From: Trueperaceae bacterium
GTDB lineage: Bacteria > Deinococcota > Deinococci > Deinococcales > Trueperaceae
Direction: 5' to 3'
NCBI GenBank assembly: GCA_011390455.1
Contig: JAABSI010000011.1
Coordinates: 1 to 25,317 of the forward strand
DNA length: 25,317 nt
Numbering within the stretch: position 1 is the first letter of the stretch; each line of letters begins with the position of its first letter. The notes below the pieces were generated by a model that was not told the DNA's origin, searched no databases, and worked only from the letters and a program-made list of their open reading frames with translations. Of the stretch, positions 1,418 to 22,704 are shown in pieces. The position numbers were made by a program, and so were the translations under genes.

Positions 1418-2809
1418 TCAGACCCGCGGCACCCCCGCGAGGCGTTCCGCCGCGGCCTTCGCGGAGCGCACCACGTCGTTGAGCCCCACGCCGTCGAGGT
1501 AGTTCCCGGCGAGCACCACGTTCGGCCGGCGCGTGGCGAGCGCCGCGCGGGCGCGGGCCACGCGCTCGCGGTGCCCGAGCCCGAACTGCGGGATGCCGCG
1601 CGGCCAGCGTGCGATCAGCACCGACTCCGGCTCCGCCACGATCCCCATGGTCCGCTCCAGGTCCCGGCGCACGGCCGCCAGCGCGTCCTCGTCCGACAGC
1701 GCCACGAAGCCCGGATCGAGCGCGCCGCCGGCGATCGCGCGCAGCGCCACCTTGCCGGACGGCGCCTGGTCGGGGAAGGTCGACGAGCTCCAGAGCACGC
1801 CCAGCGACCGGACCCCCTCGCCGCGCGGCGCCAGGAAGCCGAAGCCGTCCAGCGGCCGCGCGACGTCGATCCGGTCGTAGCCGAGCGCCACCACCGCGAC
1901 GTCGACGTAGCGGATCGTCGCGAGCTCGCTGGCGGCGTCCGGGACGTCGTGCGCGAGCAGGTCGGCGGCCGCGAAGGCCGGCGTGGCGAGCACCACCGCG
2001 TCGGCGTCGAGCGCTTCGCCGTCCGCCAGCTCGACGACGACGCCGCCGCCCGGACGCCCGACCGCGTCGCGCAGCGCCACCGCCCGCGCGCCCGTGCGCA
2101 GCCGCGCGCCCAGCTCGTCCGCCAGCGCGTCGATCAGCGTCCGCACGCCGCCCTCGAACGTGGTGAGGCGGCCGTCGCCCTTCGGTGCGCCGCTGGGGGC
2201 CGGCGCGGCGCCCTCGGCGCGGCGCGCCGCCGCCATGCCGCGCAGCAGCGAGCCGTGGGACGCCTCCAGCTTGCGCAGGCGCGGGAACAGGGCGTCGAGC
2301 GACAGCTCGCGCGGGTCGCCGGCGGTGATTCCCGCGACGAACACGCCGGCGAACACACGCGCCGCCTCGAAGCCGAAGTGGCGCGCGACGAAGTCGTACA
2401 CCGTCTCCTCGCGCCGCACGGAGCGCGCGAGCAGCGGTTCGGACAGGGCGCGCAGCTTGCCGGGGAACGACAGCAGCTCCGAGCGCAGGAAGCTACCGGG
2501 CGAGGTCGGCAGCGCGCGGAGCCCGCCGTCGCGGTAGACGAAGCGCGCGGCGGCGGCGTCGGCCGCGGGGCGCAGCCGGTCCTCGAGCCCCAGCTCGCGG
2601 GCGAGCACCAACGTCTCGGGCACGTTGGCGAGGAAGCCGTTCGGACCCCAGTCGAAGGTGTAGCCGTCCTGGACGGACGTGCGCACCTTGCCGCCGGGCG
2701 CGTCCGCGGCCTCCAGCACCACGACGTCGAGCTCGGGGCGGAGGTGCAGCAGGGCGTGGGCGGTGGCGAGGCCGGCGAGGCCCCCGCCGACGACGGCGAC
2801 GCGGTTCAT
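1418..2809 (-). CDS. hemG: Protoporphyrinogen/coproporphyrinogen oxidase (HemY/HemG type, FAD)
   Basis: FAD- and oxygen-dependent oxidation of protoporphyrinogen IX to protoporphyrin IX, the penultimate heme step. The 463-residue protein opens with the dinucleotide-binding VAVVGGGLAGLATAHAL (residues 4-20), has VVVLEAADAPGGKVRT at about 29-44, a WGPNGFLANVPE segment near 54, and ends with the FAD-contacting GNYLDGVGLNDVVRSA motif near residue 440. The same family includes CgoX, which oxidises coproporphyrinogen III; hemF nearby favours the protoporphyrin role. It starts 34 nt after hemH and lacks a Shine-Dalgarno, but TACGCT lies 7 nt before the ATG, so it may have its own leaderless transcript as well as read-through from the hem operon. 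The alternative symbol is hemY. Confidence 0.93.
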   Translation of the reverse strand: MNRVAVVGGGLAGLATAHALLHLRPELDVVVLEAADAPGGKVRTSVQDGYTFDWGPNGFLANVPETLVLARELGLEDRLRPAADAAAARFVYRDGGLRALPTSPGSFLRSELLSFPGKLRALSEPLLARSVRREETVYDFVARHFGFEAARVFAGVFVAGITAGDPRELSLDALFPRLRKLEASHGSLLRGMAAARRAEGAAPAPSGAPKGDGRLTTFEGGVRTLIDALADELGARLRTGARAVALRDAVGRPGGGVVVELADGEALDADAVVLATPAFAAADLLAHDVPDAASELATIRYVDVAVVALGYDRIDVARPLDGFGFLAPRGEGVRSLGVLWSSSTFPDQAPSGKVALRAIAGGALDPGFVALSDEDALAAVRRDLERTMGIVAEPESVLIARWPRGIPQFGLGHRERVARARAALATRRPNVVLAGNYLDGVGLNDVVRSAKAAAERLAGVPRV

Positions 2810-2843: not shown

Positions 2844-3968
2844 TCATCGGGTCGGGTACTGCGCGTTCTTCGGGGACACGGTCACCGCCGTGCGCTTGTA
2901 CGGCGCGACCGGCTTGAGCACGTTGCGGCACTGCGGGTTGACGCAGCCGGGGCAGCGGAAGCCGTAGTTGGGCGTGCACGCGACGCCTTCGGCGAGGTGG
3001 CCCGCCACCAGGTCGGCGAGCGCGTCCTGGAACTCGGGCATGCCGTTGAGCGCCGGGGCGCGGTGGAAGTTCGTGATCCCCGCCTCGTGGGCCACCTCGC
3101 CGTACTCGATGTCGAGCTCGTGCAGCGTCTCGATGTGGTCGCTCGTGAAGGCGATGCCCACCACCAGGACGTTCTTCCGCTTCTTCTTGCCCAGATCCTT
3201 CAGCACCGACTCGGTCGAGGCGCCCAGCCAGCGCACCGGGCCGACGTCGGACTGGTAGCTGATCAGGTACTCGTGGTCGTAGCCGAGGCGCTCCATCACC
3301 TCGTGCACCGAGGCCCCGATCTCGGCCGGGTAGGCGTCGCCGCGGTCGATGACGTCGAGCGGCAGCGAGTGCGCGCTGAAGACGATGACCGCGTCGTCCC
3401 GGTCCTCGGGGGCGAACTTCGCGAGCCCCTGGCGCACCGTCTCGGTCATCGCGTCGATGAAGCCGGGATGCGTGGGCCAGCGGTCGAGCACCGACCAGGT
3501 GAAGCGGTCGGCGAGCCCGGTGCGGCGCGCCGCGCGCCACAGCTCGTTGAGCGAGGAGCCGGTCGTCGAGCAACTGAACTGCGGGTACTGGGTGAAGGCC
3601 ACCGCGCGGGTCACGCCGTCGGCCGCCATCTGCTTCAGGGCCGTCTCGCTGGTCGGTTCGATGTAGCGGAAGGCCACGTAGAACTTGTGGGGTGCGGTCT
3701 CGGGCGAGAGCCGGTCGAGGCGCTCGACCATCCCGCGCCCCTGCTCCTCGGTCCACGCGAGGATGGGGGAGCCGCCGCCGATCTCCTGGTAGTGCTGCTG
3801 GATCTTCTTGGTGCGGCGGTCGGCGATGAAGGGGCCCAGCCACTTCTGCAGCGGCAGCTGGATGATCTCGCGGTCCTCGAACAGCGCGCGCAGGAAGGGG
3901 TTGACGTCGTCGAGGGTCTTGGGCCCCCCCAGGTTCATCATCACGATGCCGGTCGGTCCGTCGCTCAT
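2844..3968 (-). CDS. hemH: Ferrochelatase with animal-type [2Fe-2S] cysteine pattern
   Basis: Inserts Fe2+ into protoporphyrin IX to form protoheme. The 374-residue protein has NLGGP (12-16), FIADRRT (47-53), GGGSPI (64-69), the catalytic His in FSAHSLP (His200) and the acidic TSDHIETLHELDIEY segment (275-289). Four cysteines stand where the human mitochondrial enzyme binds its [2Fe-2S] cluster: Cys133 in QFSCSTTGSSLN and Cys339, Cys342, Cys347 in CPGCVNPQC (C-x2-C-x4-C); a further Cys331 lies near. Alignment from memory with human FECH is strong over nearly the whole length, unlike the shorter cluster-free Bacillus type. The ATG at 3968 overlaps the hemF stop (ATGA) and follows GAGGAG at 3980-3975. 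Confidence 0.97.
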   Translation of the reverse strand: MSDGPTGIVMMNLGGPKTLDDVNPFLRALFEDREIIQLPLQKWLGPFIADRRTKKIQQHYQEIGGGSPILAWTEEQGRGMVERLDRLSPETAPHKFYVAFRYIEPTSETALKQMAADGVTRAVAFTQYPQFSCSTTGSSLNELWRAARRTGLADRFTWSVLDRWPTHPGFIDAMTETVRQGLAKFAPEDRDDAVIVFSAHSLPLDVIDRGDAYPAEIGASVHEVMERLGYDHEYLISYQSDVGPVRWLGASTESVLKDLGKKKRKNVLVVGIAFTSDHIETLHELDIEYGEVAHEAGITNFHRAPALNGMPEFQDALADLVAGHLAEGVACTPNYGFRCPGCVNPQCRNVLKPVAPYKRTAVTVSPKNAQYPTR

Positions 3969-5032
3969 GGGTCGCTCCTCACGGGGGTCCCGCCGGGGCT
4001 TTCGAGCCATGCGCGGGGCTGGAAGTAGGCGAGCGCGGCGGCCTCGGGGCTGCCGGGCTCGGGCTGGTGGTCGAAGGCCCACCGGGCGATCGGGGGCATG
4101 GACATCAGGATCGCCTCGATGTGGCCGCCGGTCTGCAAGCCGAACAGCGTTCCGCGGTCGTAGACGAGGTTGAACTCCACGTAGCGCCCGCGCCGCACCG
4201 CCTGCCAAGCGCGTTCGGCGTCGGTGTAGGGGTCGCGGCGATGGCGCTCCACCAGCGGGACGTAGGCCGGCAGGAGCGCGTCGATGCCCCCCTGCACGCA
4301 GGCGAGGTCGGCCTCGAAGTCGCCCGCGCCCACGGGGCTGAGCTCGTCGAAGAAGACGCCGCCCACGCCGCGCATCTCGCCGCGGTGGCGCACGGTGAAG
4401 TACGCGTCGCACGTGGCCTTCCACGCTGGGTAATCGGCCTGCGGGTGGTCGGCGCACCAGTCGGCCAACGCGCCGTGGAAGTGGCGCACGTCGTCGGCCA
4501 CCGGGTACGCGGGGGTCAGGTCGGCGCCGCCGCCGAACCACCAGGCCGCGGGCCCCTCCCCGCCGACCTCGAAGTACCGGAAGTTGGCGTGGAAGGCGGG
4601 CACGTGCGGGTTGCGCGCGTGTAGCACCATCGACACGCCGGTGGCGAACCAGGGGCGCCCCTCGGTGCCGGGGTGCGTCGCCGCGAGGCTCGGGGGCACC
4701 CGCTCGCCGCGCACGGCCGAGACGTTCACGCCGCCGCGCTCGAACACCCGGCCCTCCTCGATCACGCGCGCCTGGCCGCCGCCGCCCTCCGGTCGATGCC
4801 AGACGTGGCGCCCGAAGCGCCCCGGGCCGGCGTCCGCCCCGGCCTCGTCGGGCCGGCCGGTCGCGCCGTCCTGCGCCTGGGCGTCCTCGAGCGCCTCGAA
4901 GCCGGCCACGAGCGTCGCCTGGGCCGTGAGCATCATGTCGAGCACGCGCGCCCGGCGACCGCTCAGGTCGAGGCCGAAGGGCCGGTCGTCGCCGGCGCGC
5001 ACGACGTCCGGAGCCACCGTCGCTCCGCTCAT
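3965..5032 (-). CDS. hemF: Oxygen-dependent coproporphyrinogen III oxidase
   Basis: Oxidatively decarboxylates coproporphyrinogen III to protoporphyrinogen IX using O2. The 355-residue protein shows GGGGQARVIEEGRVFE (83-98), GGVNVSAVRGE (100-110), the signature HANFRYFEVGG (148-158), WWFGGGADLTPAYP (164-177), GVGGVFFDEL (222-231) and YVEFNLVYDRGTLFGLQ toward the C-terminus, all in HemF order. A residue stretch rich in Asp, Gly and Ala at about 50-75 has no counterpart in E. coli HemF as I recall it, making this copy longer than the ~300-residue norm. The ATG overlaps the hemE stop by 4 nt, and its own stop overlaps the hemH start. HemF marks the protoporphyrin-dependent, aerobic pathway. Confidence 0.97.
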   Translation of the reverse strand: MSGATVAPDVVRAGDDRPFGLDLSGRRARVLDMMLTAQATLVAGFEALEDAQAQDGATGRPDEAGADAGPGRFGRHVWHRPEGGGGQARVIEEGRVFERGGVNVSAVRGERVPPSLAATHPGTEGRPWFATGVSMVLHARNPHVPAFHANFRYFEVGGEGPAAWWFGGGADLTPAYPVADDVRHFHGALADWCADHPQADYPAWKATCDAYFTVRHRGEMRGVGGVFFDELSPVGAGDFEADLACVQGGIDALLPAYVPLVERHRRDPYTDAERAWQAVRRGRYVEFNLVYDRGTLFGLQTGGHIEAILMSMPPIARWAFDHQPEPGSPEAAALAYFQPRAWLESPGGTPVRSDP

Positions 5033-6066
5033 CGGACCGCCTGGGCGTGGCGGTCGAAGCCGCGGACGGTGGCGACGAGCCGCTCGACGGCGGCGGGGTC
5101 GGTCTGGGGGAAGATGCCGTGGCCGAGGTTGAACACGTGGGCGCCACCGAGGCCGGCGCGCAGGACCCCGCGCACCTCCTCCTCGAGGGCGTCCAGCGGC
5201 CCCAGGAGCGCGGCCGGATCGAGGTTCCCCTGGAGCGTCTTGGCCGGGGCCACCGCGCGCCACGCACCGAGGGGGCGGCGCCAATCGACCGACAGCGCCT
5301 CGCACGGGAGCGCCGCGACCTCGCGTTCGAGATGGGCGCCGTCGAGCGCGAGGTAGATGCGGGGCACGTCCAGGTCTGCGAGCCCGTCCAGCACGCGCTT
5401 GGCGTAGGGCGCGCCGAAGCGCGCGTAGGTCCCGGCATCGTGCAGGCCGGCCCACGAATCGAACAGTTGGATCGCCTGGGCGCCGGCCTTCACCTGCATC
5501 CGGAGGTAGGCGATCGAGGTGTCGGCGAGCTTGCCGAGCAGCGCGTGGGCGGCGTCGGGCTCGCTGCGCAGGAAGGCCCGGAAGTGCGCGTACTCCTTGC
5601 TGCCCGAACCCTCCACCGCGTAGGTGGCGAGCGTGAGCGGGGCTCCGCCGAAGCCGAGGAGCGCGGTGCCGCGGTGCTCCTGCTCGAGCTCGGCGCGCAG
5701 CAGCCGGATCGCCTCCGCGACGAAGGGGGCGACCTCGTCCTCGCTCGGCACCCGCAGCGCGTCGACCGCCGCGCGGTCGCGGACGGGCGCGGTCAGCACC
5801 GGACCGGGCCGGAAGTCGAGGTCGAGCCCCATCGGCGGGAGCGGCGTCATGATGTCGCTGAACAGGATCGCGCCGTCCATCGCGTAGCGGCGCACCGGTT
5901 GCAGCGTGACCTCGGCGGTCAGGTCCGGGGTGCGCGCCAGCGTCCAGAAGTCGTGGCGCTCCTTGAGGGCGCGGTACTCGGGCAGGTGGCGGCCCGCTTG
6001 ACGCATCACCCACACGGGTGCGCGCGGCGTGTCTTCACCCGCAAGGGCGCGGAGCAACAGGCTCAT
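5029..6066 (-). CDS. hemE: Uroporphyrinogen decarboxylase
   Basis: Removes four carboxyl groups from uroporphyrinogen III to give coproporphyrinogen III. The 345-residue product is of normal length and carries the N-terminal signature VWVMRQAGRHLPEYR (18-32), LFSDIMTPLPPMGL with the catalytic Asp71, GFGGAPLTLATY, the FDSWAG motif, and the C-terminal FNLGHGIFPQTDP. The usual MRQAGRYLPEY has His instead of Tyr at residue 27. The ATG at 6066 follows GAGGAG and overlaps the response-regulator stop (ATGA); the hemE stop overlaps hemF in the same way. Its position right after a two-component regulator shows the sensor genes are inside the heme transcript. Confidence 0.97.
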   Translation of the reverse strand: MSLLLRALAGEDTPRAPVWVMRQAGRHLPEYRALKERHDFWTLARTPDLTAEVTLQPVRRYAMDGAILFSDIMTPLPPMGLDLDFRPGPVLTAPVRDRAAVDALRVPSEDEVAPFVAEAIRLLRAELEQEHRGTALLGFGGAPLTLATYAVEGSGSKEYAHFRAFLRSEPDAAHALLGKLADTSIAYLRMQVKAGAQAIQLFDSWAGLHDAGTYARFGAPYAKRVLDGLADLDVPRIYLALDGAHLEREVAALPCEALSVDWRRPLGAWRAVAPAKTLQGNLDPAALLGPLDALEEEVRGVLRAGLGGAHVFNLGHGIFPQTDPAAVERLVATVRGFDRHAQAVR

Positions 6067-6782
6067 CGGGTCTCCTCGTGAACGGGCTCGGGCTGGGGCG
6101 TGAAGCGGTAGCCGACCCCCCAGACGGTGTGGATGTGCACGGGTGCGGACGGGTCGGGCTCGAACAGCCGACGCAGACGCAGCACCACGTTGTCGATCGT
6201 GCGCGACGAGGGGAAGGCGTCGTCGCCCCACACCACGTCGAGGATGTCGTCGCGGCCGACCACCTGGCCCGAGCGTTCGGCCAACAACCGCAGGATGCCC
6301 ACCTCGCGCACGCCCAACGCCTCGCGCCGGCCGTCGGCCAACGTCGCCGTCCAGCTCCGCAGGTCGACCGTATGGCCGGCGAACCGGAGCTCCTCGACCG
6401 GCGGCGCGGCCGCGCCCCACGTGCGGCGTCGCAGCAGCGCATCGACGCGCAGGAGGAACTCGGGCAGGTGGAACGGCTTCGCCAAGTAGTCGTCGCCGCC
6501 CGCGCGCAGCCCGCGGACGCGGTCCTCGGGCTCACCGCGCGCCGACAGGAAGAGCACCGGCGTCGCGTCGCCCGCAGCGCGGCGGCGCTCGCAGAGGCTG
6601 AAGCCGTCGATGCCCGGCAGCATCACGTCGAGGACGACCAGGTCGGCGCCAGCGGCCCACGCGGCCTCCCCGGCCGGCCCGTCGGGGGCGATCGTCACCC
6701 GGTACCCCTCGGCCTCGAGGTTGTCGCGCAGCACGTCGGCCATCGCGGCCTCGTCCTCGACCACGACCACGCGTGCGCTCAT
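6063..6782 (-). CDS. OmpR/PhoB-family response regulator embedded in hem operon
   Basis: DNA-binding response regulator, 239 residues. Receiver domain at about 1-118: acidic Glu9/Asp10 (VVVVEDE), phospho-acceptor Asp52 in LDVMLPG, Ser80 in LFLSARGE and Lys102 in YLAKPF. A winged-helix OmpR-type domain fills about 130-232, with the typical ending HIHTVWGVGYRF. It is coupled by 4-nt overlaps to the histidine kinase upstream and to hemE downstream, so it is the obvious partner of that kinase. Family members bind two direct repeats of about 7 bp spaced 11 bp apart; such a repeat lies before hemA at 11886-11903, a candidate target by inference only. Function other than transcription control cannot be read from the sequence. 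Confidence 0.95.
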   Translation of the reverse strand: MSARVVVVEDEAAMADVLRDNLEAEGYRVTIAPDGPAGEAAWAAGADLVVLDVMLPGIDGFSLCERRRAAGDATPVLFLSARGEPEDRVRGLRAGGDDYLAKPFHLPEFLLRVDALLRRRTWGAAAPPVEELRFAGHTVDLRSWTATLADGRREALGVREVGILRLLAERSGQVVGRDDILDVVWGDDAFPSSRTIDNVVLRLRRLFEPDPSAPVHIHTVWGVGYRFTPQPEPVHEETR

Positions 6783-7945
6783 GCCGGCGCCTCCACGGCG
6801 CGCGTGCCGCCACCGGCCGGCGCGCTCTCCTCGGCCGCCACCACCCGCCGCGGCAGCACCACCGTGAAGCGCGCCCCGGTGCCGGTCGGGTTCTCCTCCG
6901 CGCGCACCCAACCGTGCAGCGACTCGACGATCGTCCGCACCAGGTGCAGGCCGATGCCGACGCCGGTCGTCGTGCGGGTCATCTCGTCGCCGGCCCGGTA
7001 GAAGCGATCGAACACCCGCTCCCGCTCGTCGCGCGTCAGGCCCGGCCCGGCGTCGTCGACGTGCAGGTGCACCAGGTCGCCGTCGGCGTGGAGCGTCACC
7101 CGCACCCGCTTCCGGGGGTTCGGGTCGTACTTGACGGCGTTGTCGAGCAGGTTGTGGAGCACGATCGCGAAGGCGTCGACGTCGAGCGAGACGGGCAGCG
7201 GCTCCGGTGCGTAGGCGACCTCGAGGAGCGCGCCGCGCTCCTCGAGGCCCGCGCGCGCGCGGCCGAGATGCCCTTGCACCACGGCGTTGAGGTCGGCCGC
7301 GGCGAGGACGGGTGGCGCGTCGCCGTGCTGCAGGCGCGCGCTGGCGAGCACCTGGTCGCTCGTGCGCTCGAGGCGGTCGAGCTCGGTCTCCATCTTGCGC
7401 AGGTACGCGACCGTTCGTTCGGGCGACGCGGGCCTGAGCGAGAGCGTCTGCACCAACAGCCGCAGGGTGCCGATCGGCGTCTTGAACTCGTGGGTGACCG
7501 CGGACAGGAAGTTCTGCTGCCGCCGCTTGAGCTCGCGCTCCACCCGCAGGCTGCCGGCGATCAGCCACAGCATCCCCAGGATCACGAAGGCGAAGAAGGG
7601 GCCCTCGAAGGCGAACATGCGCTGCGTCGAGCGCGTCGCCGCCTCCACGCCGCGCTGCGCCTCGGGGTCGATCTCCAGGCGCCCGGTGGCGGTGGCCTGC
7701 AGGTGGGGGTACCGCGCGAGCAGCGCGGAGGTGGCGCCGGGGTCGGCGGCGAGCAGCTCGTTCGCGGTGGCGACGTCGCGCGCCCAGGCCGCGGCGCGCT
7801 CGCGTGCGGCCGCGTCGAGGGCCCGCCCCTGGTACACCATCCACCACGCCACCTGCGCGAGCACGAAGGCGACGATCACGAAGAACGCGATGCGGGTGGC
7901 GGCGCGCGAGCGACCGCCGTGCAGGACCTCGGTGCGGCGGTTCAT
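6779..7945 (-). CDS. Sensor histidine kinase embedded in hem operon
   Basis: Membrane sensor kinase of 388 residues, partner of the adjacent OmpR-type regulator. Two membrane segments, about 18-37 and 112-132, enclose an extracytoplasmic region of roughly 75 residues with no sensor fold that I recognise. Then follow a HisKA domain with HEFKTPIG (His152 in FLSAVTHEFKTP), an N box LLDNAVKYDP, a G1 box DDAGPGL and a G2 box GVGIGLHLV; the catalytic domain ends near residue 370. There is no obvious HAMP or PAS domain. The ATG at 7945 overlaps the hemB stop, and its stop overlaps the regulator start. The signal is unknown; heme, porphyrin or redox stress are guesses from the neighbours. Confidence 0.94.
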   Translation of the reverse strand: MNRRTEVLHGGRSRAATRIAFFVIVAFVLAQVAWWMVYQGRALDAAARERAAAWARDVATANELLAADPGATSALLARYPHLQATATGRLEIDPEAQRGVEAATRSTQRMFAFEGPFFAFVILGMLWLIAGSLRVERELKRRQQNFLSAVTHEFKTPIGTLRLLVQTLSLRPASPERTVAYLRKMETELDRLERTSDQVLASARLQHGDAPPVLAAADLNAVVQGHLGRARAGLEERGALLEVAYAPEPLPVSLDVDAFAIVLHNLLDNAVKYDPNPRKRVRVTLHADGDLVHLHVDDAGPGLTRDERERVFDRFYRAGDEMTRTTTGVGIGLHLVRTIVESLHGWVRAEENPTGTGARFTVVLPRRVVAAEESAPAGGGTRAVEAPA

Positions 7946-8988
7946 CCGGTCCAGCCCCCCTCCGCGGCCTCGATCGCGTGGTAGGTGAGGATCAGGTCGG
8001 CGCCGGCGCGGCGGATCGCGAGGAGCGTCTCGCGCACGGCGTCGGCGCGGTCGAGCGCGCCCACCGCGGCGGCGGCCTCGAGCATCGCGTACTCGCCCGA
8101 CACCTGGTAGGCGACGAGCGGCAGCGAGGTGGTCGCGCGCACCCGAGCGACCACGTCCAGGTAGGGGAGCGCGGGCTTGACGAGCAGCAGGTCGGCCCCC
8201 TCGGCGACGTCGAGCGCCGCTTCGACGTCGGCCTCGCGGAGGTTGCGCGGGTCCATCTGGTAGCTGCGGCGGTCGCTGGGGGGGCGCAGGTCGTGGTGCG
8301 CGGTCGCGCCGGCGGTCGCGGCTCCGCCGGGCGCGGATCCGGCCGCGTCGCGGAACGGCCCGTAGAAGGCCGAAGCGTACTTGACCGCGTACGCGAGCAC
8401 CGACACGCCCGAATGCCCGGCCGCGTCGAGCCCGGCGCGGATCGCCGCGACGCGGCCGTCCATCATGTCGGACGGGGCGACCACGTCGGCGCCCGCGTCG
8501 GCGTGGGCCACGGCCATGGAAGCGAGCAGCGGCAGCGTCGGGTCGTCGGCGACGACCGCGTGCGCTCCGTGCGCCCGACCGGGCGCCAACACGCCGCAGT
8601 GGCCGTGGTCGGTGTACCCGCACAAGCAGACGTCGGTCATCAGCACCAGGTCGTCGCCGAACGCCGCCCGGGCGGCGCGGAGCGCCGACGCCACCGGCCC
8701 TTCGGGATCGGCGGCGGCGCTTCCGAGCGGGTCCTTGGCGGTGCCGTCGACGACGCCGAAGAGCATCACGGAGCGCACGCCCGCGGCGAGCGCGCGTTCG
8801 AGCTCCGGCAGCAGGCGGTCGACCGACCGCCGCGCGACGCGCGGCAGCGAGGCGATCGGCTCGACCCGGTCGCGACCGCCCACGACGAAGGTCGGCCAGA
8901 TCAGATGCTCGGGCGCGACGAAGGTCTCGGCGACCAGGGCGCGAAGCGCCGGCGTGGCGCGCAGTCGGCGTGGACGCCGGGCGCTCAC
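7942..8988 (-). CDS. hemB: Delta-aminolevulinic acid dehydratase (porphobilinogen synthase)
   Basis: Condenses two 5-aminolevulinate molecules into porphobilinogen. Starting at the GTG (8988-8986) that overlaps the hemD stop gives 348 residues. The zinc-type active site is present: Cys121, Cys123 and Cys131 in TDVCLCGYTDHGHCG; Schiff-base lysines are Lys203 in YAVKYASAFYGPFRD and Lys271 in LLVKPALPYLD. SDMMDGRV and YQVSGEYAM match the family. Between GSAP (217-220) and DRRSYQMDP (239-247) there is an extra Ala/Gly/His-rich stretch of about 16 residues where most bacterial HemB proteins have only two or three, in the active-site lid. It is coupled to hemD and the kinase by 4-nt overlaps. Confidence 0.97.
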   Translation of the reverse strand: MSARRPRRLRATPALRALVAETFVAPEHLIWPTFVVGGRDRVEPIASLPRVARRSVDRLLPELERALAAGVRSVMLFGVVDGTAKDPLGSAAADPEGPVASALRAARAAFGDDLVLMTDVCLCGYTDHGHCGVLAPGRAHGAHAVVADDPTLPLLASMAVAHADAGADVVAPSDMMDGRVAAIRAGLDAAGHSGVSVLAYAVKYASAFYGPFRDAAGSAPGGAATAGATAHHDLRPPSDRRSYQMDPRNLREADVEAALDVAEGADLLLVKPALPYLDVVARVRATTSLPLVAYQVSGEYAMLEAAAAVGALDRADAVRETLLAIRRAGADLILTYHAIEAAEGGWTG

Positions 8989-9725
8989 GGGGCGGCGCTC
9001 CCGTCGCCGGACCGCCCGGCGGGCGCCGACCGCGCGACCGGCTCGCGCGCGAGCGCGGCGGCGACCGCTTCGGCGGTCGGCGTGGCGGCGACCGCCACCC
9101 GCCAGCCGCGCCGGCGCGCCGCCGCGGCGGTCGTCGGCCCGATCGCGACGATCAACGCCGCGCTCCCGACCGCCGCGGGGAGCGCGGAGACCCCGGAGGG
9201 GCTGGCGACGACGATCGCGTCGACCGGCGCTTCCACGCGCCAACCCAACCCGATGCGGTCGTACACGACCGCGATGCGCACCTCCACGCGACCGGCCCGC
9301 AAGCCGCGCGCGAGCGCGGGCCGGGCGCTCGATCCCTGGACCACGCCGACGGCTTCGCCTTGGCGCGGGCCGTCCGGGTGCGCGAGGACCTGGGTGGCGA
9401 GCGCGGCGGCCGTCGCGGGCCGCGCGACGAGGTCGACGTGCGCGCCCGCGGAGCGCAGCGCCGTGGCGGTGGCGGGCCCGACGGCGCCGAGCCGCGTGTC
9501 CGGATCGAACCCGAGGCCCAGCGCGCGCCATGCCTCGACCGCGGTGCGGCTGGGGTAGAGGCGCCAGCGGAGCGGCTCCAGCGCCGCCGCCGCGGCGCGG
9601 CTGGCGTCGTCGCTGCGCGGCTGCACCGCGATCAGCGGGCTGCGCACCGGATCGTGGCCCAGCGCGCGCAGGCGCGCCTCGAGGCCCTCCAGGCGGCCGC
9701 TCGAAGCGGTGATCGCGACCCTCAC
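8985..9725 (-). CDS. hemD: Uroporphyrinogen-III synthase
   Basis: Closes hydroxymethylbilane with inversion of ring D to yield uroporphyrinogen III. The 246-residue reading frame starts at GTG 9725-9723 (VRVAITASSGRLEGLEARL), overlapping the hemC stop as GTGA, and ends overlapping the hemB start. HemD sequences are poorly conserved, but the pattern is right: a first-domain start VAITASSGR, SRTAVEAW near residue 60, AVGPATATALRSAG, the second-domain VVASPSGVSAL, and IVAIGPTTAAAARRRGW near the C-terminus. Length and place between hemC and hemB support the call strongly. The alternative, a DUF of similar bilobal fold, is unlikely here. Confidence 0.93.
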   Translation of the reverse strand: MRVAITASSGRLEGLEARLRALGHDPVRSPLIAVQPRSDDASRAAAAALEPLRWRLYPSRTAVEAWRALGLGFDPDTRLGAVGPATATALRSAGAHVDLVARPATAAALATQVLAHPDGPRQGEAVGVVQGSSARPALARGLRAGRVEVRIAVVYDRIGLGWRVEAPVDAIVVASPSGVSALPAAVGSAALIVAIGPTTAAAARRRGWRVAVAATPTAEAVAAALAREPVARSAPAGRSGDGSAAP

Positions 9726-10633
9726 GCCCGCCGCCCCGGGCGCCCGAGCGCCTCGAACGCGAGCAGCGCCGCCCCTTCGGCGACGCGATGGTGCACGTCG
9801 ACGCGCGCGCCCTCGTACCAGGCGGCCAGCGCCATGTCGCCCTCGGCCGTGCGCGCGGCGTAGGCCCCGAGCGCCAGTTGGCATCCCGCGTCCAGGGCCG
9901 CCATCAGCCCGCGCTCGGCGGCGACCATGGGGAAGCCCCGGACGTCGTGGAGGTCGGTGAGGGGATCGCCGAGCGCGTCGCCGCGGCGGATCTCGAGCGC
10001 GAGCGCCCCCTGCGCGGGTGCCGGCAGGAAGACGGTCGGATCGAGGTCGATGCGCACCAAGCCGTCCAGGTCGAGGTCCAGGCGATCGAGGCCGGCCGCG
10101 GCGAGCATCACCGCGTCGAGCGGCTGGCCGTCGCGGGTGGCCTTGGACCGCGCCGCCCCGGCGCGCGTGGGGACGTTGCCCCGGATGCCGATCGCGGCGA
10201 GGTCGGGGCGGAGCGCGCGCAGTTGCGCCTGGCGCCGCACCGCGCCGGTGCCCACGCGCGCGCCCTGGGCGAGCGGCAGCGCGCCCGCGCCGGGATCGTG
10301 CGCGTCGGGGTGCACGAGCAGCACGTCGTGCACGGCCGCGCGCTCCGGCACGGCGGCCACCTCGAGACCGTCGGCGGGGGCCGCCGGGAGGTCCTTGAAC
10401 GAGTGCACGGCCAGGTCGGCGCGCCCGTCGCGCACCGCCTCCTGGACCGCCTTGACGAACACGCCCACGCCCACCTCGCGGATCGGCGCCGTGCTGCGGT
10501 CGCCCTCGGTGCTCACGAGCACGAGCTCGGTCGCCAGGCCGGACCGCTCCAGCCGCGCCGCGACCCAGCGGGCTTGCCAGAGCGCGAGGTCGCTCGCGCG
10601 GGTGGCGATGCGGACGGTGATCGGGCGGGTCAT
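9722..10633 (-). CDS. hemC: Porphobilinogen deaminase (hydroxymethylbilane synthase)
   Basis: Polymerises four porphobilinogens into hydroxymethylbilane using a covalent dipyrromethane cofactor. The 303-residue protein has RIATRASDLALWQA (8-21), the catalytic Asp81 in AVHSFKDLP, VGTGAVRRQAQL (127-138), IRGNVPTR (150-157), FLPAPAQGALALE (202-214) and the cofactor-attachment Cys251 in AGCQLALGAY. After the conserved GNVxTR the spacing to the next conserved DAVMLAAAGL is about six residues longer than in E. coli HemC. The ATG at 10633 follows AGGAGGT and overlaps the hemA stop; the stop overlaps hemD. Confidence 0.97.
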   Translation of the reverse strand: MTRPITVRIATRASDLALWQARWVAARLERSGLATELVLVSTEGDRSTAPIREVGVGVFVKAVQEAVRDGRADLAVHSFKDLPAAPADGLEVAAVPERAAVHDVLLVHPDAHDPGAGALPLAQGARVGTGAVRRQAQLRALRPDLAAIGIRGNVPTRAGAARSKATRDGQPLDAVMLAAAGLDRLDLDLDGLVRIDLDPTVFLPAPAQGALALEIRRGDALGDPLTDLHDVRGFPMVAAERGLMAALDAGCQLALGAYAARTAEGDMALAAWYEGARVDVHHRVAEGAALLAFEALGRPGRRA

Positions 10634-11850
10634 CGCTCGGCGACCTCCTGGAGGGCCGGTACGTCGGGTCCGGTGCGCGTCGGCTCGAGGGCCTGCAGGC
10701 CGGTCTCCTCGAGGAAGGTGCGGGCGGCGGCGAGGCCGTGCTCGCGGGCGACGGCGCGCAACCCTTTGACCGGCACGTGCGCCACGCGCCGGGCGAGGCG
10801 GCGCGCCTCGTCCGCGGGCAGCGCGTCGGCCAGGGTCGCCTCGAACCACCCCTGGAGGGCGCGGATCGAGGGCGCCAGGCTGCGCTCCGTCCAGGCGCCC
10901 ATCGCCTCGTCGATGCCGGTGCGCAGCAGCCCCTCGGCGGTGGCGAGGTGGCACGCCAGGGCGCCGCGGCGCGCCTCGCCCGCCACCTGCAGGGCGTCGA
11001 CGTCGAGCACCCGGACGCCGCGGGCGTGCGCCGCACCGCCGTCGATCGTACGGGGGATGCCGAGGTCGACGACCAGTCGGAGCGACGGGGCGCGGGCCAG
11101 CCACGCGTCGTCGATCAACCGACCGCCGCTGGTCGCACCGACCAGCACGTGCGCGTCGAGGTCGCGGCCGGCGACGTCGGCGAGCGCGCACGCCTCGGCG
11201 CCCAGCTCGTCGGCGACCGCGCGCGCTCGCGCGACGTCCCGGTTGACGACGACGAGCTCCACGCCGGGGATCGCAGCGAGCGAGCGCGAGGCGATCCGCC
11301 CCATCTCGCCGGCCCCGACGACCACCGCCCGGCCGCCGTGCGCGAGCACGGCCTCGACGTCCGCGCGCGCGAGGCTGAACAGGGAGGCGTCGCGCGGCGC
11401 CAGCGGCACCTCGCGCCGCACCCGCTTGGCGACCCGCAGCGCGGCGTCCACGGCGAACGACAGGGTCGGATCGATCCGGCCCTCGGCGCGCGCCAGCTGG
11501 ACGGCGTCGCGCACCTGCCGCATCACCTGGTCCTCGCCCGGGTTGAGGGCGTCGAGCGAGGACGCCACCCGCGCCAGCTGCTCGAGCGCGGCTTCGCCGA
11601 CGAAGGCGTACGGGCGCTTGCGGGCGTGGGCCGGCGTGATCGCCGCGCGCAGGCGGTCGACCCCGAGCCCCTCGGGGCGGGTGAGCACCACGTCGACGCG
11701 GTTGCACGTGCGCAGCTCGAACCACGACGCCACGCCCAACGCCGCGAGCCGCTCCGGAAGGGGGCGTTCGGCGTGGTCGGTCGCGTACGTTTCGAGCGCT
11801 TCGGCACCGCCGCGGCGGTGCGAGACGCCGATCAAGGTCAGGTGGTCCAC
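10630..11850 (-). CDS. hemA: Glutamyl-tRNA reductase, first gene of the hem operon
   Basis: NADPH-dependent reduction of Glu-tRNA(Glu) to glutamate-1-semialdehyde, the first committed step of the C5 heme pathway. 406 residues from the GTG at 11850-11848, which gives VDHLTLIGVSHRRGGAEALE; the active-site Cys49 lies in ELRTCNRVDV, PGEDQVMRQVRDA near residue 110 matches the family GEdQIlgQ motif, and VVVGAGEMGRIASRSL is the nucleotide-binding loop. No Shine-Dalgarno precedes the GTG; TACCCT lies 9 nt upstream, suggesting a nearly leaderless transcript. The reading frame stays open further upstream, but nothing there resembles HemA. It is followed by hemC with a 4-nt overlap. The partner HemL is not in the window. 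Confidence 0.96.
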   Translation of the reverse strand: MDHLTLIGVSHRRGGAEALETYATDHAERPLPERLAALGVASWFELRTCNRVDVVLTRPEGLGVDRLRAAITPAHARKRPYAFVGEAALEQLARVASSLDALNPGEDQVMRQVRDAVQLARAEGRIDPTLSFAVDAALRVAKRVRREVPLAPRDASLFSLARADVEAVLAHGGRAVVVGAGEMGRIASRSLAAIPGVELVVVNRDVARARAVADELGAEACALADVAGRDLDAHVLVGATSGGRLIDDAWLARAPSLRLVVDLGIPRTIDGGAAHARGVRVLDVDALQVAGEARRGALACHLATAEGLLRTGIDEAMGAWTERSLAPSIRALQGWFEATLADALPADEARRLARRVAHVPVKGLRAVAREHGLAAARTFLEETGLQALEPTRTGPDVPALQEVAER

Positions 11851-11859
11851 CGGTCGCAA

Positions 11860-11865
11860 AGGGTA
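11860..11865 (-). promoter_or_regulatory. -10-like TACCCT before hemA
   Basis: TACCCT on the minus strand ends 9 nt before the hemA GTG, 20 nt downstream of the 7-4-7 direct repeat. It is the likely main promoter -10 of the hem operon; no good -35 is visible, as expected if an activator substitutes. Confidence 0.45.
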
Positions 11866-11885
11866 CGGCGGCGGGGCCGGGGCGT

Positions 11886-11903
11886 GTGTCACCGAAGTGT
11901 CAC
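11886..11903. promoter_or_regulatory. Perfect 7-4-7 direct repeat, candidate OmpR/PhoB-type operator
   Basis: GTGTCAC (11886-11892), four bases CGAA, then GTGTCAC again (11897-11903), an 11-bp period. OmpR/PhoB-family regulators bind this layout (the E. coli pho box is two 7-bp CTGTCAT-like repeats 4 bp apart). It lies in the divergent region between hemA and the lipoprotein operon, so either or both could be controlled. The link to the regulator at 6063-6782 is an inference. Confidence 0.45.
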
Positions 11904-11991
11904 GCGGCGCGCTCGGGCACCGCGCCCGACGGCGACCCAGCGCCGTTAGGCGCACGCCGGGTTCGACGCCCGGTGCGCTCGCCGCGCGCCC

Positions 11992-11997
11992 TAGCCT
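11992..11997 (+). promoter_or_regulatory. Candidate -10 (TAGCCT) for the lipoprotein-Lnt operon
   Basis: TAGCCT lies 75 nt before the ATG at 12073, which has a clear Shine-Dalgarno AAGGAG at 12061-12066. No matching -35 is seen. An ordinary leadered transcript is suggested. Confidence 0.3.
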
Positions 11998-12072
11998 GCT
12001 CCCCACGCCGCAGCCGCGGCGCCCGTTTCTGGCGTCGGTGCGTACGCCCGGCGCGTTCGAAAGGAGCCCACC

Positions 12073-12690
12073 ATGCCTCGACCTCGTCCCCTCCTCCGCG
12101 TTCGGCCCGCACGCCGGCAGCCCCGGCGCTGGGCGCACGGGCCCCTCGGCGCCAGGGCCGGCCGCACCGCTCGCGTGCTCGGGCTGGCGCTGGCGGGCCT
12201 GCTCGCGACGCTCGTGCTCGCCGCGTGCCAGGGCGGCGCATCGGTCGCCGCCCCGGACGCCTGGACCGAGGCGGAGCTCGCCGGCGTGTTCGACCTGTCG
12301 GAACTCGGCACCGACCTCGTCGCGGCCGCCGACGGCGACCACCTGACGCTCGATGGGCGCGCCCTGCCGCCTGCCCTCCTCGAGCAGCTGCCGCACCTGT
12401 CGATGGGGCGCTCGCTGAACCTGCTGCGGCTGTCCGACGACGCCCTCTCGGCCATGGCGCCCGACGTCGCCGCCTTCCTCGTGCGCGCCGCGCCGGGCGA
12501 GCTCCGCGAGCACCTCCGTGGCTACGGCCTCGCCGTCCCGGACGTGCGTGCGGCGTGGAGCACGACCGGCGCGCTCGACCTCGCCGGACTCCGCGCGGTC
12601 GCCCAGCGGCTCGACGCCGCCGATGGCCTGCACGTCGCCGGCCTCGGTGCGGGAAGCCGCCTCCTCGCCGACCTCGGGGTACCGCGGTGA
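12073..12690 (+). CDS. Predicted lipoprotein of unknown function
   Basis: 205 residues; I do not recognise a family. A long Arg/Pro-rich start is followed by a hydrophobic stretch (about 35-50) and a lipobox ending in LAAC, with Cys52 the predicted lipidated residue, so it should be anchored in a membrane facing the envelope. The mature part is about 150 residues, rich in Leu, Ala and Asp and probably mainly helical, with no catalytic motif seen. AAGGAG at 12061-12066 supports the ATG, although the 34-residue n-region is unusually long. Its stop overlaps the next start as GTGA. It is the first gene of a four-gene operon ending in an Lnt-like acyltransferase, which could act on this lipoprotein. 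Confidence 0.8.
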   Translation: MPRPRPLLRVRPARRQPRRWAHGPLGARAGRTARVLGLALAGLLATLVLAACQGGASVAAPDAWTEAELAGVFDLSELGTDLVAAADGDHLTLDGRALPPALLEQLPHLSMGRSLNLLRLSDDALSAMAPDVAAFLVRAAPGELREHLRGYGLAVPDVRAAWSTTGALDLAGLRAVAQRLDAADGLHVAGLGAGSRLLADLGVPR

Positions 12691-13220: not shown

Positions 13221-14143
13221 CGCGCCCCCTCCTCGCCCCCCCGGCGCCGAGGCGCCGGGGGGGCGCCCTCGTGCTCGCGCTGCTCCTGGCGACGTGGGCC
13301 ATCGGCCAAGCGGACCCGACGTCCTCCGGAGGCGCGGCGCCGACGCCGTGCGGCACGCTCGATGGGCTCGGCTTCGTCGTCCAGGGCGCGCTCGTCGGCG
13401 ATCACCTGCGGGCCACGTGGACCCTCGTCGCGGCGCCCGTCGCGGCGCCCGTGTTCCGTCCGCTCGTCTTCGTCGACGGCGTTCTGCGGACCGACTTCGG
13501 GCCGGTCGCCTTCCCGTGCGAACGGCCCGTGTCGGTCGAGGCGCCGGACCTCGGCGCGCGCGACGCCGTGCACTGGTTGCTCCACGGGTGGCCGCCGGTG
13601 CCGAGCGCGCTGACCGCGCTCGGCTTCGAGGAAGCGCGCGCCGCCTACGCGGCGCGCCTCCCCCCTGGCACGTTCGCGCTCGCGGACGTCGGGTTCGACC
13701 GGCCGATCGGCGGACGGGCGCGCGCGAGCGAGGCCGCCGCGACGCACGCCGCAGGGGTGCTCGTCGAGGACCGCGTCGAGGTCCCGGCGTGGGCGCTGCC
13801 GAGCGACGGTCGCGACGGCCGGGGCGGCGACGATCGGCTCGTGCGCGCACCGGTCGGAACGTCGCTGCCGGTCCGGATCGTGTACGCCGCTCCGGACGCG
13901 GCGCGCGTGCTGGCCATCTGCCTCCTCGACGGGGTCCAGGTGCCCGCCTTCGCGGGCGCATCGGCGGTCGCCGCCCGCCTCGAGCCGGGCGGGGTGCTCG
14001 TGCTCGACGGCGCTGTGCGGGTGCCGGGTCCGGGCTGGCACCGGCTCCACTGCCTGCTGCTCCCCGACGACGCGGACCCCGAGACGCCCACCCCGCCGCG
14101 GCCGCTGGCGGCGCTCTACGTGTGGGGCGCGGCTCCTCCGTGA
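13217..14143 (+). CDS. Exported protein with four cysteines, unknown function
   Basis: 308 residues; ATG at 13217 overlaps the upstream stop (ATGA) and the stop overlaps the next GTG. Residues 11-30 (RRRGGALVLALLLATWAIG) look like a signal peptide with likely cleavage near residue 32. The mature part has cysteines at 45, 101, 235 and 279, consistent with two disulfides in an extracytoplasmic protein, and many Val/Leu strands typical of a beta-sandwich. No family is recognised. It belongs to the lipoprotein-Lnt operon and is presumably an envelope protein serving the same purpose as its neighbours. Confidence 0.75.
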   Translation: MTRPLLAPPAPRRRGGALVLALLLATWAIGQADPTSSGGAAPTPCGTLDGLGFVVQGALVGDHLRATWTLVAAPVAAPVFRPLVFVDGVLRTDFGPVAFPCERPVSVEAPDLGARDAVHWLLHGWPPVPSALTALGFEEARAAYAARLPPGTFALADVGFDRPIGGRARASEAAATHAAGVLVEDRVEVPAWALPSDGRDGRGGDDRLVRAPVGTSLPVRIVYAAPDAARVLAICLLDGVQVPAFAGASAVAARLEPGGVLVLDGAVRVPGPGWHRLHCLLLPDDADPETPTPPRPLAALYVWGAAPP

Positions 14144-15627
14144 CCACGTCGCACCGCGCCGCGGCGATGGCCCGACTCGTCGCCGCGGTGGCGCTCGTCG
14201 CCTGGGCGTGCCGCCCCGAGGGCCCTTGGCTCGCCTCGATGGTCGGAGCCGCCCTGGTGTGGCCCGACCTGGCGCGCGGTTCCGGGCCGCGTCCGGCCGC
14301 CACCGCGGCGCTCCTGCTGGCGCCGGTGCCCGCGAGCGCCTTCGAGGGGCTGCGGGTGCACGACCCTGCCGCCTGGGCGGCCGTCGCCGTCGGCTGGTCC
14401 GTGGCGTACGGGGCCGTGGGCGCCCTCGGTGGTCGGGTGGTCGGGCGCACCTTCGCGCCGTCGGCGCGCCCCGTGGGATGGGCGGCGGCCTGGGCGGCCT
14501 TGGACGCGGCGGTCGTCCACGGCGCACCCTTCGTCTCGGCGCTCCCGGTCACGCCCGGGTACCTGCTGCTCGACGGTCCGCTGGTGGCCTGGGCGGCGGT
14601 GGGTGGACCGGTGGCGCTCGGGGTGGCGTGGGCGCTGCTCGGCGCGGCGCTCGCGGCGGTGGTCGGCCGGTTCGGGGTCGCGCCGGGCGGGACCGCCGCG
14701 GGGGCCGCGTGGGGGGCGGTGGCCCTCGCGCTCGTCGGCGGGGCCCACGCGTGGAGCGCTGCGGCCACGCGCGCGCCGACCGTGCCGAGCCGGACGGTGG
14801 CCGTCGCGCACGGCGTCGGCGGCGAAGCCGCGCTCGCCGCCACGCGCACCGACCCCGACGCTGCGGCGGGGATCGTGGCCGCGCTGCTCGAGCGTGCGCG
14901 TGCCTCGCCCGCGGTCGACCTCCACGTGTGGCCCGAGAGCGCGCTCGGGTACGTCGCCCCCGAGGGGCTCCCGGGGTTGGTCGAGGTCGCTCGGGCGCTC
15001 GGCGCGCCGGTGCTCGCCGGCGGGTACCGGCCCGATGCCGACGGTGGGTGGCGCAACTCGGTCGTGTTCGCCACGACCGCGGCCGCCACGTGGGCGGTCG
15101 ACAAGCGCCACCTGGTGCCGCGCTACGAAGCGTGGCTGACGGCCGGCGTCGGCGAGCGCTGGCCGGTGCGGGTCGCGGGCCGGCGCTGGGGCGTGCTGCT
15201 CTGCTGGGAGTCGTTGCACCTGGGTGCGGCCTTGGAGCGCGCGCGGGCGGCCGATGTGCTGCTGGTCCTCACCCACGACGGGTGGGCGGGCGCGACGGCC
15301 ACGCCCTGGTGGCACGCTCGGAGCGGGCGGCTGCTCGCGTGGTCGACGGGGAAGCCCGTGGTCGTCGCGTCGCACGACGGGCCGTCCATGGCATGGAGCC
15401 ACGACGGCCGCCTGCTGGGCTCGGCGGCGGGCACCGAGGTGGGCCTCGCCGTGGCGCTCGATCCACCGGAGCGGTGGACGACCCCGTACGCGCGATTCGG
15501 TCCTCGGGGCGTGGCGGCGGCGGTGGCGGCGGCGTGGGCGGTCCTGCTCGCCACCGTGGTGGCGCGCCACGCGGTCGCGGTCGACGGGCGTCAGGGGTGC
15601 GGCGCCTCGGGCCCCCAGGCGGCGTAG
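14140..15627 (+). CDS. lnt: Apolipoprotein N-acyltransferase-like membrane protein (nitrilase fold)
   Basis: Lnt adds the third acyl chain to the N-terminal Cys of lipoproteins. From GTG 14140 the product is 495 residues: hydrophobic, multi-spanning N-terminal half (about 10-205), a nitrilase domain (about 217-445) and a last membrane segment (about 457-475). The nitrilase triad is visible: Glu266 in VWPESALGY, Lys322 in DKRHLVPRYE and Cys355 in GVLLCWESL; HARSGRLLAW...PVVVASHDG matches the following Lnt region. The membrane half is divergent, so a specialised paralogue is possible and the symbol is tentative. It is coupled to three exported-protein genes by 4-nt overlaps. The last 37 nt overlap the end of the convergent cysQ-like gene. 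Confidence 0.82.
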   Translation: MTTSHRAAAMARLVAAVALVAWACRPEGPWLASMVGAALVWPDLARGSGPRPAATAALLLAPVPASAFEGLRVHDPAAWAAVAVGWSVAYGAVGALGGRVVGRTFAPSARPVGWAAAWAALDAAVVHGAPFVSALPVTPGYLLLDGPLVAWAAVGGPVALGVAWALLGAALAAVVGRFGVAPGGTAAGAAWGAVALALVGGAHAWSAAATRAPTVPSRTVAVAHGVGGEAALAATRTDPDAAAGIVAALLERARASPAVDLHVWPESALGYVAPEGLPGLVEVARALGAPVLAGGYRPDADGGWRNSVVFATTAAATWAVDKRHLVPRYEAWLTAGVGERWPVRVAGRRWGVLLCWESLHLGAALERARAADVLLVLTHDGWAGATATPWWHARSGRLLAWSTGKPVVVASHDGPSMAWSHDGRLLGSAAGTEVGLAVALDPPERWTTPYARFGPRGVAAAVAAAWAVLLATVVARHAVAVDGRQGCGASGPQAA

Positions 15628-20729: not shown

Positions 20730-21455
20730 ATGACGTTCCGCGACGGCGTGCTCGAGGGGTTCCGCGACGTGATCCCGATCCTGTTGGCGGTCACGCCCTT
20801 CGGCCTCGTCGCCGGCGTGTCGGCCGCCGAGGTGGGGTTGCCGGTCGCCCACGCCGTGGGGATGAGCTACGTCGTGTACGCCGGGACCGCGCAGCTCGCC
20901 GCGCTGCAACTCCTCGCCGTGGGCTCGCCGTTCGCGGTCATCGTGCTGACCACGCTGCTCCTGAACCTCCGCTTCGCCCTCTACTCCGCGACGCTCGCCC
21001 CCCACCTGCGCGGCCCGCGCTGGCCGATGCGCTTGTGGATGGCGTCGATGATGACCGATCAGTCGATGGCGCTCGGCATCCATCGGTACGCGACCAAACC
21101 CGAGCGCGGCGCCAAGGTGGCGTACTACCTGGGCGTCTCGGTGCCCGTCTGGATCGTCTGGACGACGGCCGCCACCGTCGGGGTGTTCCTGGGCGCGGCG
21201 GTGCCGGCCGGATGGTCGCTCGAGTTCGCCGTGCCGCTCGTCTTCCTGACGCTCTGGGTGTTCGCGCTCGCGCGCGGTCGCGGGCCGGTGTGGTGGGCGG
21301 GCGGCGTGGGCGCGATCGTCGCGATCCTCGCGCGCCCGCTGCCCTTCAACCTCGGGCTGCTCGTCGCGTCCTTCGCGGGCATCGCTGCGGGCTTGGCCGC
21401 CGAGCACCTCCGCGACCGGCGCCGCCCGGTCGTCGACCCCGGGGGCGCGCCGTGA
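20730..21455 (+). CDS. azlC: AzlC family branched-chain amino acid exporter, large subunit
   Basis: Large membrane subunit of the AzlCD (YgaZH-like) exporter for branched-chain amino acids. The 241-residue protein begins with FRDGVLEGFRDVIPILLAVTPFGLVAG, the AzlC opening, followed by AHAVGMSYVVYAGTAQLAALQLL, LLLNLRFALYSATLAPHL and WMASMMTDQSMAL, each typical of the family; several hydrophobic membrane segments run to about residue 225. The stop overlaps the azlD GTG start by 4 nt. Substrate is inferred from family only. Confidence 0.93.
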   Translation: MTFRDGVLEGFRDVIPILLAVTPFGLVAGVSAAEVGLPVAHAVGMSYVVYAGTAQLAALQLLAVGSPFAVIVLTTLLLNLRFALYSATLAPHLRGPRWPMRLWMASMMTDQSMALGIHRYATKPERGAKVAYYLGVSVPVWIVWTTAATVGVFLGAAVPAGWSLEFAVPLVFLTLWVFALARGRGPVWWAGGVGAIVAILARPLPFNLGLLVASFAGIAAGLAAEHLRDRRRPVVDPGGAP

Positions 21456-21796
21456 GCGGGGCGTCCAGCGACGCGGCGCTCTGGGGTCTGCTCCTGGCGA
21501 TGTCGGCCTTGACGTTGACGCTGCGGGCGAGCTTCTTCGTGTTCGGCGACCGGATCCGCATCCCACCGCTCGTGCGTCGGGGCCTCGACTACGTGCCGGC
21601 GGCCGTGCTGGCGGCGATCGTCGCGCCCGCCTTCGTGCTGTTCGCGCCCGGCGAGGCCGTCGACCTGGCCGTGCAGGCGCCCCGCTGGGCGGCGGGCGTG
21701 GTGGGGGTCGCCGCAGCGCTGATCACCCGCAACATGCTCGCCGTGCTCGTGCTCGGGATGGCGACGCTGTGGGGCGTCCAGGCGCTCCTGGGCTGA
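21452..21796 (+). CDS. azlD: AzlD family branched-chain amino acid exporter, small subunit
   Basis: Small partner of AzlC, 114 residues with three or four membrane segments. Starts at GTG 21452 within GTGA, giving VSGASSDAALWGLLLAMSALTLTLRASFF; the LRxSFF and LDYVPAAVLAAIVAP segments (about residues 44-60) and TRNMLAVLVLGM near the end are AzlD features. Its stop is only 1 nt from the stop of the convergent aldo-keto reductase gene, leaving no room for a separate terminator. Confidence 0.92.
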   Translation: MSGASSDAALWGLLLAMSALTLTLRASFFVFGDRIRIPPLVRRGLDYVPAAVLAAIVAPAFVLFAPGEAVDLAVQAPRWAAGVVGVAAALITRNMLAVLVLGMATLWGVQALLG

Positions 21797-22610: not shown

Positions 22611-22616
22611 GACCCC

Positions 22617-22622
22617 ACCGTA
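22617..22622 (-). promoter_or_regulatory. -10-like TACGGT before the aldo-keto reductase
   Basis: TACGGT on the minus strand ends 6 nt before the ATG at 22610; no ribosome site. Fits the leaderless pattern. Confidence 0.5.
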
Positions 22623-22692
22623 CCCGGCCACCGACGCCGAGCGGCGTGCCCCGATGCCCGATCCGCGGACCGGTCGGCGGCGGGGGGCGTGC

Positions 22693-22698
22693 TGTGAT
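22693..22698 (+). promoter_or_regulatory. -10-like TGTGAT before the MFS gene
   Basis: TGTGAT ends 6 nt before the GTG at 22705. It is a weaker match (G at the second position) but its spacing supports this GTG as the start. Confidence 0.35.
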
Positions 22699-22704
22699 GG
22701 GTTG

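Follow-up and report, generated by a model that had tools for sequence, protein, structure and literature searches.

A two-component pair within the heme synthesis operon of Truepera and Meiothermus lineages as a likely heme-supply controller

We analysed a stretch of 25,317 nt from a Trueperaceae bacterium (GCA_011390455.1; hereafter the window), in which a sensor histidine kinase and an OmpR/PhoB-type response regulator are encoded in the middle of heme synthesis genes, and we consider it likely that this pair is a dedicated controller of heme supply, with the regulator predicted to bind a box upstream of hemA and to switch on a leaderless promoter that serves the entire operon, the two genes of the pair included. 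The operon genes all lie on the minus strand, and their order from 11850 to 2844 is hemA-hemC-hemD-hemB-kinase-regulator-hemE-hemF-hemH (open reading frames of the window, named by Pfam and NCBIfam; Table 1), with all eight junctions being 4-nt ATGA or GTGA overlaps, at 10630, 9722, 8985, 7942, 6779, 6063, 5029 and 3965. The original prediction, made from the sequence of the window, had reported this nine-gene order and its eight overlaps, and re-reading the open reading frames bears both out at every position; the count of nine stands for hemA to hemH, but hemY, which was left uncounted, lies 34 nt past hemH and makes the run ten genes long. The same prediction had proposed a dedicated controller of heme synthesis, which is supported by a feature that it overlooked. 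A TGACA-N6-TGACA box precedes hemA in 41 of 43 kinase-positive Deinococcota genomes (37 exact, four with one mismatch) and in none of 45 kinase-negative ones, the latter carrying another hemA type and being unmatched in ancestry.

Box and predicted promoter upstream of hemA

The exact box occurs once in the window and in none of 100 window shuffles; when only the 200 nt upstream of hemA were shuffled, it arose by chance in 2 of 200,000 cases. It has the same form as the published hem-box of the Leptospira regulator HemR (PMC11426443). Readable sequence upstream of hemA was available in 43 of the 54 kinase-positive genomes. The 37 exact boxes include those of G081/L250 and G105/L344, and the boxes with one mismatch are those of L136, L159, L161 and L345. 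The distance from the box start to the start codon is 48-54 nt for 35 of the 37 exact boxes; in the remaining two, L134 and L137, the box lies about 151 nt ahead of the assigned start. The spacer of the hemA sites shows a preference for [C/G]T[T/C]nnG.

For the control, hemA was identified by PF05201 in 91 of 111 genomes, 48 of them kinase-negative, and the 45 starts found to lack a box were searched on either strand with up to one mismatch, two of the stretches being short (180 and 304 nt). Two hemA types are present in the phylum, the cluster type matching PF05201 with E-values of 1e-17 to 1e-28 and the 45 controls with values below 1e-38. Because the hemA of the controls matches this family more strongly than the cluster type does, they are not matched by ancestry, and the hem cluster together with its pair may have a separate ancestry.

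We next consider the promoter, for which TACCCT is the predicted -10 hexamer in the window. In an alignment of 40 upstream sequences, which include the window, the one-mismatch rows and three kinase-negative genomes, 35 have a TAnnnT-like hexamer 20-22 nt past the box, and in 35 its distance to the start codon is 7-10 nt; the hexamers were called by a lenient procedure that takes the best -10-like candidate within a narrow interval. In Deinococcus radiodurans, leaderless promoters with TANNNT beside the start codon are established (PMC12340547). The box occupies roughly the -35 position; no sigma-70-type -35/-10 pair was found in positions 11800-12100 of the window, and the match to TTGACA 15-19 nt before TACCCT never exceeded 3 of 6 positions, as tested in the window only. 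Because the box stands at the -35 place and no -35 element was found in the window, the regulator is predicted to activate the leaderless promoter and with it its own genes; the layout would be that of an activator-dependent promoter.

Control of the opposite sign, in which the regulator is mainly a hemA repressor that lets go when dephosphorylated, has some precedent in Leptospira biflexa, where HemR represses hmuO while activating hemA and where deletion of the hemKR pair raised the hemA operon under iron shortage (PMC11426443). Activation fits the layout better, with the box upstream of the predicted -10 and at the missing -35, and a repressor is in our assessment rather improbable. In standard medium the same deletion left the hemA operon without significant change (PMC11426443), and in view of these deletion results activation alone falls short of a full account even in L. 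biflexa.

Position of the pair across Deinococcota

A profile of 31 kinases (A1) was searched against the 111 Deinococcota genomes at E <= 1e-70 and found the kinase in 54 of them, with a single match per genome, the weakest at 2.6e-108. Taking one locus per kinase-positive genome (54 loci: L001, L096 and L123-L174), we observe hemB immediately before the kinase in 46 of 54, in Truepera and Meiothermus lineages. Where both members of the pair were found (50 loci), the regulator follows the kinase in every case, with a gap of at most 129 nt. Carriers include a Truepera metagenome-assembled genome (L001) and, among named species, Meiothermus ruber, M. rufus and M. silvanus, whose names attach to one clade; among named homologues, those nearest to the kinase carry the label Trueperaceae, and the locus closest to the window (L154, genome G088) has a kinase that is 94% identical and a hemB that is 99% identical over the part present. 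Among viral contigs, no relative was found. A 628-residue protein (P0097) has both kinase and regulator domains and appears to be the pair in naturally fused form.

The overlaps themselves vary between relatives. With start codons picked near the aligned start, a 4-nt overlap can be read at 43 of 50 junctions between kinase and regulator, 33 of 43 between regulator and hemE, 19 of 46 between hemB and kinase and 9 of 36 between hemA and hemC. Because of this variation, while the kinase keeps its place behind hemB in most loci, the conserved feature is the location of the pair rather than each overlap. The varying overlaps, together with the eight loci in which the kinase does not lie behind hemB (L123, L124, L125, L127, L141, L145, L170 and L172), would suit an accident in which some unrelated two-component pair was inserted by chance into a compact operon, with no regulatory meaning; the recurrence of the hemB-kinase order in both lineages, with a conserved hemA box upstream, makes such an accident very improbable indeed. 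In L123 (8441-10729) and L127, a ferrochelatase gene directly follows the kinase, and no regulator gene was detected adjoining.

Further box sites and comparison with known systems

Upon applying a stricter box pattern, TGACANTYNNRTGACA, we find it in 40 of the 54 genomes that have the kinase and in 5 of the 57 that lack it (Fisher p 5e-13, ignoring relatedness). We examined 33 stretches with such sites, namely 31 around sites outside the main loci as well as L170 and L172, and they comprise nine at hemA, one at a lone ferrochelatase gene (L255; TIGR00109), six at binding-protein genes, one at the pair, seven at phosphate-transport-like genes and nine without assignment. The binding proteins are of the heme/siderophore/B12 periplasmic type (L243, L246, L247, L248, L254 and L172). 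A scan of five of the six confirmed Peripla_BP_2 in each, and a scan of the downstream genes at two loci, L246 and L172, showed FecCD permease genes at both. One of the proteins, that of L246, was compared with PDB, where its closest matches are heme-binding proteins, namely 5gj3 and 3md9 HmuT (4.7e-38). No heme oxygenase (hmuO) gene was recognised in the 33 stretches, nine of which lack an assignment, and no directed hmuO search was made.

In L170 the box lies at the relocated kinase-regulator pair itself, and in L172 the pair lies about 100 nt behind the permease gene of a heme-type transporter. A pair found in relatives away from any hem gene and having unrelated targets had been named in the original prediction as evidence against a heme role. 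Such relocated pairs do exist (L124, L125, L170 and L172), but this gives only half of that evidence, the boxes standing at the pair (L170) or at heme-uptake-type genes (in L172, and in L254 from the genome of L124).

The hemA box could instead be read by another OmpR/PhoB-type regulator, for example PhoB, with the pair placed in the operon for co-expression and controlling something else. For PhoB-type regulators, direct TGACA/TGTCA repeats with a period of 11 bp are typical, and similar boxes precede pstS-type genes, the seven phosphate-transport-like cases being assigned by hidden Markov model to PstS in L245 and L252 and by resemblance in L236, L244, L249, L257 and L261. The pairing of the hemA box with kinase-positive genomes speaks against a PhoB site, as do the boxes that relocated pairs have at themselves or at heme-uptake-type genes (L170, L172 and L254) and the spacer, since most pst-type sites end in ...CATGACA, unlike the hemA sites; overall, we judge this reading unlikely. 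The TGACA repeats at phosphate-transport genes are probably a Pho box of Deinococcota.

Several observations weigh against a dedicated heme-supply controller. The generic TGACA-repeat pattern occurs in 87 of 111 genomes and its half-site, shared with the pstS sites, is not heme-specific; the argument for heme control rests on the location of the box and on the set of genomes that carry it, and not on the motif by itself. The hemA box is absent from L165, in which the full cluster is present, and from L343, a stretch from a genome whose pair lies away from hem genes. Additionally, three kinase-negative genomes (G078, G091 and G102) have the exact box at a cluster-type hemA: in G078 and G091 the contig stops before the kinase position, and in G102 (L240, about 7967-8199) the hemA box and the regulator are present with no kinase between hemB and the regulator, a kinase match at E <= 1e-70 being found nowhere in that genome. 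The phosphate-transport boxes, the differing hemA type of the controls and both L. biflexa deletion results count in the same direction, and the statistics over the genome set take no account of relatedness. Having weighed these points, we favour a dedicated heme-supply controller, which we regard as a real and conserved heme-control circuit that is probably functional.

The closest parallel is the HemKR system of Leptospira. In both systems, a HisKA kinase with two membrane segments is paired with an OmpR/PhoB-type regulator, TGACA-N6-TGACA lies upstream of hemA, the pair is linked to hem genes (in the window and most kinase loci here, in L. interrogans there), and heme/iron import genes of the Leptospira regulon have their counterpart in the heme-import-type genes of the predicted regulon. 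The differences are that the pair here lies between hemB and hemE inside one tight operon, that the extracytoplasmic part of the kinase has about 70 residues as against 32 in L. biflexa, and that the promoter is predicted to be leaderless. By analogy, the system may work like HemKR in its parts, linkage, box and predicted import genes, a likeness that we do not extend to membership. PDB entry 4q7e, which we take to be the receiver of L. biflexa HemR, ranks 30th of 217 in the matches of the regulator receiver profile to PDB, which in this comparison of a single domain shows no particular closeness, and is not among the best 50 receiver-fold matches. Heme-linked systems had been described in the original prediction as lying apart from synthesis genes, which is true of L. 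biflexa, where the hemKR pair is located elsewhere (PMC11426443), and is contradicted by L. interrogans, with hklep/rrlep between hemE and hemL, and by Bdellovibrio, mentioned as a further hem-linked case (PMC2266917). Because the L. interrogans pair is itself placed among hem genes, the claimed novelty of the arrangement is partly wrong.

PhoBR shares with the present pair the same broad kinase and regulator families and the PhoB-type direct repeats, and the NCBIfam PhoB and PhoR models do match; however, their scores are far under the curated cut-offs (TIGR02154, 153.5 of 296.2 bits; TIGR02966, 112.8 of 334.2 bits), and the pair is linked to hem genes and not to pst genes. HssRS, HrrSA and ChrSA are two-component systems of heme balance that are tied to efflux, degradation or use, and they are not known to be embedded in a full synthesis operon. 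A Myxococcales locus with the order hemA-kinase-regulator (L002) was rejected as the same system, its best box having at least 3 mismatches in the 440 nt before its hemA. In this metagenome-assembled genome the hem-linked pair (8635-11823) appears to be separate and follows CxxCH-like motifs seen by eye; a search of 188 Myxococcota genomes with the L002 kinase gave 55 further matches, 32-44% identical and mostly over the kinase core only.

Sensor kinase, proposed control and neighbouring genes

In the AlphaFold2 model of the kinase (mean pLDDT 83.9), a long helix (residues 9-67) is followed by a short one, by a two-strand hairpin (82-84 and 90-92) and by a helix (94-170) that spans the second membrane segment and continues into the kinase core. 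No HAMP match was found in the Pfam scan and no globular sensor domain in the model; the best 50 PDB matches to the whole-kinase model include histidine kinase structures, over roughly the length of the core. An envelope signal, as originally suggested, is not borne out, given a model that lacks a globular sensor and an L. biflexa kinase that still complements the mutant after replacement of its periplasmic loop (PMC2266917). In L. biflexa, 5-aminolevulinic acid triggers the phosphatase activity of the kinase (PMC2266917, PMC11426443). As a guess, either the membrane helices or the small hairpin cap may perceive the signal. The sequence RYPHL in the sensor loop is not claimed as a heme-binding motif, its His not being invariant.

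In the mechanism that we propose, the regulator, once phosphorylated, would bind the TGACA-N6-TGACA box ahead of hemA and activate the predicted leaderless promoter of the entire operon, which would be read as one transcript, kinase and regulator genes included. More weakly, and by analogy with HemKR, the kinase would become a phosphatase as levels of porphyrin or a precursor rise, and the operon would be switched off, its product thus limiting the positive self-loop; our confidence in such a product-dependent shut-off is low. On a broader scale, heme synthesis in Truepera and Meiothermus might be run by a self-amplifying, operon-encoded loop that reads the box known from HemKR of spirochetes, likewise at hemA, being either an old circuit that crossed phyla with the divergent hemA cluster or an independent build from PhoB-type parts, with a tetrapyrrole or precursor sensed via the membrane helices and no globular sensor, a picture that we offer tentatively and, taken as a whole, lean against.

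How bacteria adjust tetrapyrrole synthesis to demand is understood for few groups, and the present case offers predictions of a regulator, of its site and of a small regulon that covers synthesis, ferrochelatase and heme-type import. In the open-access literature we recognised no paper that describes such a system for Deinococcota, most subscription papers being outside that search. With the kinase present in named Meiothermus species including M. ruber, what HemK-type kinases sense could be asked beyond Leptospira.

Table 1. Coordinates in the window of the heme operon genes and of the predicted control elements upstream of hemA
Feature	Coordinates	Strand	Basis or remark
TGACA-CTTCGG-TGACA box, predicted regulator binding site, upstream of hemA	11887..11902	-	sole exact match in window
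TACCCT, predicted -10 hexamer of leaderless promoter	11860..11865	-	21 nt after box, 9 nt before start codon
hemA, glutamyl-tRNA reductase (divergent type), GTG start	10630..11850	-	PF05201, PF01488; TIGR01035 139.3 of 209.55 bits, below cut-off
hemC, hydroxymethylbilane synthase	9722..10633	-	TIGR00212 over cut-off
hemD, uroporphyrinogen-III synthase	8985..9725	-	PF02602; NCBIfam score under cut-off
hemB, porphobilinogen synthase	7942..8988	-	NF006762 over cut-off
Sensor histidine kinase, two predicted membrane helices, small extracytoplasmic hairpin	6779..7945	-	PF00512, PF02518; AlphaFold2 model
OmpR/PhoB-type response regulator	6063..6782	-	PF00072, PF00486
hemE, uroporphyrinogen decarboxylase	5029..6066	-	TIGR01464 over cut-off
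hemF, oxygen-dependent coproporphyrinogen oxidase	3965..5032	-	NF003727 over cut-off
hemH, ferrochelatase	2844..3968	-	TIGR00109 over cut-off
hemY, protoporphyrinogen oxidase	1418..2809	-	TIGR00562 over cut-off

Elsewhere in the window, an open frame divergent from hemA (12073-12690, plus strand) has a lipoprotein-like N-terminus by eye and no Pfam match. Also on the plus strand are a protein with a carbon-nitrogen hydrolase domain (13294-15627), an AzlC/AzlD pair (20730-21796; frames as given in the list of open reading frames, starts unchecked) and a transporter of the MFS family (22483-23979).

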